Shown here: positions 18,463 through 61,977 of the stretch, piece by piece
Numbering within the stretch: the stretch's first letter is position 1
How the letters are laid out: each line of letters begins with the position of its first letter
Assembly (NCBI RefSeq): GCF_001624705.1
Contig: NZ_JSEO01000012.1
Coordinates: 1-64,000 of the forward strand
Direction of reading: 5' to 3'
Source of the DNA: Marinomonas sp. SBI8L
GTDB lineage: Bacteria > Pseudomonadota > Gammaproteobacteria > Pseudomonadales > Marinomonadaceae
Length of the DNA: 64,000 bases
Program-made: the position numbers and the translations under genes
Notes under the pieces: model-generated
Databases searched by the model: none
Told to the model about the DNA's origin: nothing
What the model saw: only the letters and a program-made list of their open reading frames with translations

Positions 18463-18888
18463 TGATGGTTTCCTTACAAATTTAGTACGCGGAAAGTTGA
18501 TGCGTTCAATCGTTAAAGATTAGTTTCCTAGGTGCATGTTAAAGTTTGATTTGTTAATTTATTTTTGAGGAAGCAGTGAATAACTTCTCTCGCCACAATG
18601 TGTGGATAATAGGTCCTCGTTTTATGGCGAAGAGTGTCATTCAATTTACTGGCTTGTTTGTTTCTGAGCAAGTGTTATAAATTCATTTAACCTTGAAATA
18701 AAGGTGATGCCTTGTTGTAAATGAACCACACACTAAAAAAGAAGTTTGTTGAACATTTAAGCAACTTATCCTAAACCGACATGGACCAATACAAAAAATC
18801 CCTTCATAAAAAATGTGTTATTATAAAAATAATTAATAAAAACAAATAGATATTTTATTTATCTATTTTTCATCAAAGAGTCATTAGC

Positions 18889-26467: not shown

Positions 26468-26495
26468 TTACTCAAGTAAGATGATCTGCTATTAT
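26468..26495 (+). promoter_or_regulatory. Extended -10 promoter before the candidate RNA
   Basis: TGC-TATTAT (26487-26495) is an extended -10 element with a weak -35 (TTACTC at 26468-26473, 16-base spacer). The expected start, about 5-7 bases downstream, coincides with the first base of the RNA closing helix at 26500. Confidence 0.55.
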
Positions 26496-26499
26496 GCCT

Positions 26500-26767
26500 A
26501 GGGAAGCTGAGAATAAATCCTCCCGTCTCAGCGTGTGGATAAAACGCCTGAGATTTAAGGCGAGAGTTACAACTTAATAGTTACTATATTGATAAGGCTC
26601 TCAACTTACTAGATAAGGCTTTTAGGGCACGTCCTTCGGGTCTTTCAGAAAAAATGTCTTCCTGTGTTGTCCCTTCTTGGAAGGGGCCTACATTACGTCA
26701 AAGTGACGCCTTGTTCGACACTTTTTCTGAGAAGACTGAGAAGAGGTGACTTAATCTAAGCTTCCCT
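26500..26767 (+). ncRNA. Candidate structured non-coding RNA, about 268 nt, family not recognised
   Basis: The two ends pair: AGGGAAGCT (26500-26508) with AGCTTCCCT (26759-26767), and the helix continues inward through AGA/TCT and TAA/TTA with only two single mismatches (26500-26516 with 26751-26767). Inside are CGCCT/AGGCG (26545-26562), GAGAG/CTCTC (26562-26602), and a 13-bp helix TCAGAAAAA..TGTC/GACA..TTTTTCTGA (26645-26658 with 26717-26730) that encloses two hairpins, CCCTTC/GAAGGG (26671-26685) and CGTCA/TGACG (26696-26708). There is no T-run at the 3' end, suggesting processing. It does not look like 6S, tmRNA, RNase P or SRP RNA. Confidence 0.55.
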
Positions 26768-26827
26768 GCAAAATGTCATCAAATTTAATTGATTGAAAGT
26801 CATCCAGTGAAAAGAGCATATTTCTAA

Positions 26828-36435: not shown

Positions 36436-37125
36436 AAAGATAACAAACCTATTTTGAGCAAGAGTAAACAAATATATTGATCGAAAGATCAATCATGCTG
36501 AACCTGAGTACATATTATCGCCAAAATTCATGACATTTTATAGACCTTGTTGGTGCCAAGATTAAAAAGTCCACATTAGGTGCCTGCGGTTAAGTTTCTT
36601 TTTCTTAGTTTGTTCTTGTCAGGTTTGCGATAAAAATGTATCAAGCAAGGTGTCAATTTGACGTAATTTAGACCCCTTTTGAGTAGGGGAATGTATGTAG
36701 TGGATGAGTGCTGAAATGCCGTATAGGTGTTCTTCTAGGGCCCGAAATACGTGGTATAAAAGTCCTACCTTTAAGTTGAAGATCTTATCATTAGCGTCGC
36801 TTTTAAGTAGCGCCCTTCGCTATACATCTAGAGTCTGCTATTCACCCGCTAAGGTAGGGGGCTTATCCGTAGGTTTCTTAATCAATATAAAAAAGCTTCA
36901 AAGCATCCTTATGTAATGCTTTATTTATTGTAATTTTCTGGAAATTTGCTTCAAAGCATGAAGATAAAACCTAAGCTTCACAATTTTTAACCGATTTTAA
37001 TCGCACAATGGGGGTCTCTAGAGTGCTTATCAAGAGTGGGTGTGGTTAAATTCAATTTATTTTAAGCTTGACGTTCGAAACTTGTTTTAGCCTTTAAAGG
37101 GTAAAAGTAGGTTATAAGAGTATCT
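36436..37125. other. 690-base spacer between the Bax-like gene and the diguanylate cyclase
   Basis: It holds a degraded minus-strand gene (36619-36906), a hairpin CCCCT/AGGGG near 36670-36686, a small stem TAGCG/CGCTA (36808-36822) and a 12-base direct repeat GCTTCAAAGCAT at 36895-36906 and 36948-36959. The remainder shows nothing I can name apart from promoter space for the cyclase. Confidence 0.45.
36619..36906 (-). pseudogene. Degraded small gene with three in-frame stops
   Basis: Reading the minus strand from ATG at 36906 gives a protein-like 95-codon frame interrupted by TGA (codon 3), TAG and TAG. All three could come from C-to-T changes (CGA to TGA, CAG to TAG twice). The last 66 codons are open, with credible content (GLLYHVFRALEEHLYGISAL, then SKLRQIDTLLDTFLSQT before TGA). 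The opposite strand is open over 70 codons, a common shadow of former coding. No family recognised. Chance cannot be excluded. Confidence 0.35.
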
Positions 37126-61743: not shown

Positions 61744-61821
61744 GGCAATGGCCTTGTCTTAATTAAGAGGTCTAAACTGGCCTTAAGTTCAAAATATCGT
61801 TACAATCCGCTTCGATTTTTT

Positions 61822-61919
61822 ATCTCATGGGGTGCACTGCTATTTTTTGATGCAGGGCTGAGAAGCAAAGGCTAACCCAATGAACCTGATCCAGATTATG
61901 CTGGCGTAGGGATTGAGAT
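61822..61919 (+). promoter_or_regulatory. TPP riboswitch (THI element)
   Basis: All conserved blocks are present in order: P1 closing arms ATCTCA (61822-61827) and TGAGAT (61914-61919), the GGGGTGC box (61829-61835), GCTGAGA near 61857-61863, ACCC..TGAACCTGAT near 61875-61890 and GCGTAGGGA near 61904-61912. It binds thiamine pyrophosphate and turns off the thiB-thiP unit downstream. Confidence 0.95.
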
Positions 61920-61977
61920 CCTCTATTTATAATATTTTTTAGCGCTTAATTTTATAAGCCAAAAAATAGAGAGCCTT

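Follow-up and report, generated by a model that had tools for sequence, protein, structure and literature searches.

Positions 26,500 to 26,767 of the window, by which we mean the whole 64,000-nucleotide stretch of Marinomonas sp. SBI8L DNA analysed here, lie between suhB and trmJ and fold strongly enough that the first-pass annotation proposed a new structured RNA there. The question raised by this locus is therefore whether the fold belongs to an RNA gene of this particular spacer. We find that the spacer holds one worn copy of a small mobile DNA repeat and not a fixed RNA gene. The explanation we favour, and hold with considerable confidence, is that of a worn non-autonomous transposon (MITE) with IS5-group ends, situated between the trmJ promoter and trmJ and carrying a conserved core of two arms.

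The folded segment in front of trmJ

The fold itself is well founded. The two ends of the segment pair at 15 of 17 positions (26500-26516 against 26751-26767), the interior helices described earlier are present, including a long one at approximately 26640-26736, and the order exceeds chance, with RNA folding energies of -93.0 kcal/mol on the plus strand (z -5.15) and -93.8 kcal/mol on the minus strand (z -6.40); on either strand, 0 of 200 shuffles folded as well as the spacer. No Rfam family reached its gathering score in the spacer, in agreement with the earlier remark that the landmarks of familiar RNAs were missing, and a permissive scan of the spacer gave a single chance-level match, located beyond the promoter on its other side. 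Rfam likewise returned no known family for the element at 10 other loci. Elsewhere in the window a TPP riboswitch lies at 61818-61930, its 68.1 bits exceeding the gathering score.

The extended -10 promoter that had been placed at the 5' end of the segment exists, with TG at 26487-26488 and TATTAT at 26490-26495, but it is the promoter of trmJ, since [TA]CTGNTANNAT is common to all 30 spacers examined (29 free of the element, and the window). Among the other genomes of the genus 48 gave a match to trmJ; spacers were fetched from 29 of these, and all 29 offer an empty site: the comparison of suhB-trmJ spacers among relatives found no conservation of the element at the locus (0/29). The distance from [TA]CTGNTANNAT to the end of the printed spacer, which takes in about 12 nt of trmJ, is 56-78 nt in the 29 element-free spacers and 344 nt in the window, and a longer trmJ leader is accordingly to be expected from the insertion; transcription would then pass through the element, with a possible effect upon trmJ. 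A structured RNA gene specific to this spacer would account for the strong fold, and the element does start about where transcription from the trmJ -10 box would be expected to begin. Nevertheless, given that the element is absent here from every relative examined, is multi-copy with target duplications, and borrows a promoter belonging to trmJ, we reject this reading as extremely improbable. The extent first given to the folded unit also required adjustment, for the unit proper begins GGAA and ends TTCC, with limits set by aligned copies together with their flanks, and the target site lies outside it (Table 1).

Table 1. Positions in the window of the element, its parts and the flanking signals.
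Feature	Position	Strand	Basis or remark
Mobile element, 264 bp	26502..26765	+	Limits set by alignment of copies and their flanks; profile match 1-262 of 262
Left target-site repeat CTAG (YTAR)	26498..26501	.	Outside the unit; repeats of genus copies nearly all YTAR
Left terminal inverted repeat (TIR)	26502..26520	+	15/19 bases as in the E. coli IS5 end (our count)
Arm 1, decayed	26531..26632	+	Placed by alignment A3; unmatched by the arm model; folds differently here
Mini-hairpin CC-TTC-GG between the arms	26633..26639	.	Alignment A3; both pairs invariant in 22/22 elements
Arm 2, AAGGCG to CAACG sense	26640..26736	-	Arm model R1, 56.7 bits, E 9.4e-11
Right terminal inverted repeat (TIR)	26747..26765	-	Aligned copies with flanks
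Right target-site repeat, decayed (CTGC vs CTAG)	26766..26769	.	
trmJ promoter, extended -10 (TG-n-TATTAT); does not belong to the element	26487..26495	+	[TA]CTGNTANNAT in 30/30 suhB-trmJ spacers

Copies, target sites and the core shared across genera

A blastn search with positions 26480-26790 returned matches in 20 of 57 genomes, all of them within Marinomonas, and the window's own genome gave 13 scored matches out of 121 first-look candidates. With two other copies as queries, 30 and 34 of 49 genus genomes were matched. A pattern scan of named genomes listed at least 78 stretches, and all 78 of those listed bear the name Marinomonas. A 400-kb genome sample, picked without regard to copies, contained two intact and two diverged copies, a further copy truncated at the edge of a region, and two fragments. 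Within the window there are also a diverged copy at 36584-36875 on the minus strand and a fragment at 18569-18645 on the plus strand. An identical 4-bp repeat flanks both sides in 29 copies of a first set of 42 full-length matches (five duplicate loci left out; alignment A1 takes in 39 of the 42, three with long insertions being set aside), and in 79 of the 117 distinct full-length Marinomonas copies of the full set. These 79 comprise 37 TTAA, 32 CTAG, 5 CTAA, 4 TTAG and 1 CAAG, and because some of the repeats are non-palindromic they represent direct duplication and not an extension of the terminal pairing. The palindromes TTAA and CTAG (69) are far commoner among the identical repeats than CTAA and TTAG (9).

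Of the 110 Marinomonas copies whose flanks were long enough for the comparison, 101 are clear of any ORF of 100 aa or more, and where neighbours could be assigned on both sides (100 copies) these were tandem in 56, divergent in 24 and convergent in 20. By our count, 23 of the 110 copies adjoin an ORF of at least 100 aa whose last codon is exactly the TAA or TAG contained in the target repeat (24 ORFs, as one copy has ORFs from both sides). Such loci include L009, L045 and L006, and at L009 a single TTAA closes two convergent ORFs. Since the target coincides with the stop codon of the neighbouring ORF, its duplication restores the stop. Nine of ten such ORFs scanned matched a Pfam family, several up to near the end of the protein (an Asparaginase_C match runs to residue 319 of 321), and on the strength of these near-terminal matches the cases look like insertions into natural stop codons.

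The core predates the genus. From a match in a different family of the order we reached a 263-bp element that is flanked on each side by CTAG and folds in the same way (-148 kcal/mol). Used as a query, this element matched 50 of the 341 genomes searched in the order and 30 of the 131 genera represented, one of which is Marinomonas. Size and layout are shared in the other genera: a TIR helix, an arm, a mini-hairpin and an inverted arm. Among the folds of 22 elements and 4 Marinomonas clade consensuses, two large arms appear in 25 of 26 and the 7-nt hairpin between them in 20 of 26 (our counts). The two arms, each of approximately 96-101 nt, stand head to head around this hairpin and align once one is inverted, each reading AAGGCG, stem, apical hairpin, stem, CAACG. 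One later element set took in 17 of 22 elements, five being dropped (longer than 280 bp, or L329, L331 and L351).

Within the class, a covariance model of one arm matched 118 of 369 genomes, in 93 of 272 genera, so that structured-RNA scans of intergenic DNA will often meet this family, and for the phylum the figures are 98 of 378 genomes and 51 of 199 genera, with 55 of those 98 genomes lying outside the class and mostly in one family (our count); the E-values of this model are rough, and any long hairpin gains some score. When 48 matched loci were fetched, AAGGCG and CAACG stood at the expected place in 42, with at most one mismatch each, and a second arm lay on the opposite strand 90-130 nt away in 37 (counted by hand). 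Exact 4-bp repeats are rarer in these other lineages, at 6/22 and 7/25 (one of them ATAA). These rates come from end-finders that placed ends in 22 of 30 and 25 of 30 loci with a bonus for YTAR flanks and GG starts, and therefore lean upward. In one genome (G569) numerous contigs terminate in arms or element ends, which indicates that the assembly was broken by many near-identical copies. A search of the literature with the arm strings gave no match, and strings of the IS5 end matched two papers, in a body of work where most subscription journals were outside reach.

Against this background the copy in the window is a worn one, because the arm model matches its arm 2 and not its arm 1; both arms were matched in the two intact copies of the 400-kb sample. 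CTAG is intact on its left side only, and the ORF list of the window has no ORF of at least 60 aa inside the 264-bp element.

Covariation and strand asymmetry of the arms

The first-pass annotation had looked to compensatory changes for support, and with genuine relatives in the comparison covariation of the helices is indeed seen (22 elements; 27 arms). When the fold of one element (L326) was applied to 22 elements from 21 genomes, 86.3% of cells were paired, against 67.0% in shuffles and 36-46% with slid partners, while cells changed on both sides numbered 440 against 147 in shuffles and the covariation was 0.503, against 0.168 in shuffles and 0.09-0.13 with slid partners. The arms alone gave a covariation of 0.805 against 0.219. 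The underlying alignment (A4) holds 27 of 34 arms, and as four of the seven left out (one arm each of L332, L339, L343 and L346) have a changed motif, this value and model R1 are both weighted towards the typical arm. Pairing is preserved by many of the double changes that separate the Marinomonas clade consensuses; with the clade 4 fold applied to clade 2, 20 of 28 double-changed pairs are Watson-Crick and 13 of 18 one-sided changes break the pair. A tree-aware pairwise test of 112 Marinomonas copies (of the 117, those of 245-282 bp with identical ones merged) found no covarying pair at E<0.05, the best having E 0.65 and being a non-pairing pair of columns, in a set where power is low (columns changed 4.7 times on average, and the copies fall into three main clades). 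RNAalifold applied to the same 112 copies on both strands retained only 16 shared pairs, and there A.C exceeded G.U (68 to 18) on the plus strand, with no clean strand signal.

A more pointed result came from the kind of mismatch tolerated. Elements were folded with G.U forbidden, and isolated mismatches inside helices were counted. On the plus strand of 38 elements, arm 1 showed G.U 47 : A.C 7 and arm 2 showed G.U 4 : A.C 38. Arms were not picked by motif for this count; a one-mismatch motif picked 63 of the 76 possible arms, and these, each read in its own sense, gave G.U 70 : A.C 8, or 37 to 8 by our subtraction without the three richest positions (-8, -7 and 17). The imbalance is seen per arm (45 vs 5, with 13 ties) and per element (28 vs 2 of 36), while the TIR helices of the same 38 elements stood at 25 : 25 folded alone and 19 to 29 in whole-element folds. 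In this wider set, then, the behaviour of the TIR is that of duplex DNA, and the behaviour of each arm that of a single strand, the two strands being opposite. Among the 117 Marinomonas copies the arms are again opposite (52:9 and 14:66), but the closing helix is uneven too (G.U 32 : A.C 79) and the control fails there, so that the TIR control holds only in the wider set; unevenness of this kind would follow, among related copies, from counting a small number of inherited mismatches over and over. A genomic bias of one strand is ruled out because both arms lie within one element, and deamination of an exposed hairpin, which could give the bias, again implies single-strandedness. Each arm thus looks to be selected as a folded single strand, RNA or single-stranded DNA (ssDNA), with the two on opposite strands, and the wobble asymmetry makes a role at the RNA level possible. 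The compensatory changes together with the opposite wobble in the arms argue for selection on the inside of the element.

Mobilisation and possible functions of the core

A common form of the end in the genus, GGAAGGTGCGAACAAGTCC, is identical over 19 bp to one end of IS5 (the insH element) of E. coli K-12. A 4-bp duplication of a YTAR target is the rule for IS5. Of 49 genus genomes, 37 have IS5-type transposases, whose identity to InsH reaches 74%, the two intact ones scanned belong to the IS5 family in NCBIfam, and the genus IS5 copies have similar ends, preceded by YTAR in 21 of 27 (our count, one MITE copy left out). G231, from a different genus, has a broken IS5-type element terminating in GGAGCCTCTGAATAATTCTG and a copy of the MITE terminating in GGAGCCTCTGAATAATTCCG. 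Unlike IS5, the element carries no transposase gene and has no likeness to it, by eye, inside the ends; derivation from IS5 by internal deletion was accordingly considered and found unsupported, the sequence inside the ends differing by eye from the IS5 copies read. It is reasonable to postulate that an IS5-group transposase supplied from elsewhere recognises the inverted ends, and that the element is inserted into a YTAR tetranucleotide, which is duplicated; of these steps the ends and the duplication are seen directly, and mobilisation by IS5 is what we infer from them. In the window's genome, a draft assembly of 69 contigs, none of five candidates was an IS5 transposase, and no matching ends were found at five PF01609 matches; as no IS5 transposase was found, the family looks stranded in this genome.

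IS5 cannot move the element everywhere, however, since in some lineages the ends are unlike IS5. They differ by lineage (GGAAGGTGCGAA, GGAGCCTCTGAA, TACTCTTTCAAGG and TGTCCCTTAACAG). For the TACTCTTTCAAGG ends, no autonomous partner was apparent as a facing pair at IS spacing among the matches listed in eight genomes, judged by eye, where many of these ends lie at contig edges. Collections of plasmids and phages gave no match to the element.

With regard to the core, each arm looks constrained, on the statistical evidence given above, to fold as a single strand, namely the strand along which it is met before the other arm. The mechanism we favour is that a transcript, arriving from either side, would fold whichever arm emerges first, and an insertion in either orientation would then always offer one correct arm. 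Such an arm would perhaps bind a conserved protein, or perhaps set processing or termination, so that insertions near genes would be tolerated. More broadly, and only tentatively, we suggest a mobile class spread over the phylum in which the lasting part is not the ends but a pair of opposed single-strand modules, one per strand, the core riding on unrelated inverted repeats as a direction-proof RNA or ssDNA device.

A competing account takes the arms to be ssDNA hairpins that act in replication or transposition and are recognised on one strand, in the manner of REP or attC, with TIRs and arms alike serving mobility. BIME/REP pairs and attC sites are inverted hairpin pairs, or hairpins used on one strand. 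A strand-specific constraint on two arms of opposite strands fits such a scheme, as do exchangeable ends around a constant core. Unlike BIME/REP and attC, the element has long TIRs and 4-bp target duplications; these point to a DDE-type duplex mechanism, and the tolerance of G.U most simply indicates RNA, yet each is compatible with ssDNA. By eye, neither a GTAG foot nor attC boxes were noticed in the arm alignment. We regard ssDNA hairpins as a genuine possibility, albeit one that we would not call probable, and the opposite wobble signature offers a direct way of telling RNA function from ssDNA function. The core might alternatively be that of an ordinary MITE, functionless and kept by shared descent and by the self-correction of near-palindromes, as template switching can homogenise long inverted repeats and stable folds are general among MITEs (PMC10969869). 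Self-correction of a palindrome, however, predicts no opposite G.U bias in two arms, nor does it predict a mismatch motif, AAGGCG/CAACG, fixed inside a helix over many genera (42/48 loci), and we consider a functionless core unlikely and disfavour it.

A transposon with a core selected as single strands, which we prefer, has partial counterparts. Correia/NEMIS and ERIC, bacterial MITEs with effects at the RNA level, resemble the element by description as small intergenic mobile repeats with folding transcripts, and RNase III cleavage is reported for Correia transcripts; opposed arms and a phylum-wide spread are absent from the available part of their account (PMC10969869). QMITE1 and QMITE2 of Coxiella burnetii are MITEs found via small RNAs, with very stable predicted folds, and they are set apart from the element by size or repeats: QMITE1 is 300-400 bp with 2-4-bp repeats, and QMITE2 has 7-9-bp repeats (PMC5896051).

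MITEs are usually treated as the local debris of one insertion sequence, and here a MITE core retains one architecture across a large part of a class and beyond it, in further classes of the same phylum. A minor observation concerns arm 1, where TGTGGATAA, a perfect DnaA box in reverse complement, occurs at 26534-26542; it is not kept in the other aligned genera, and it stands at the same place in most aligned Marinomonas copies.
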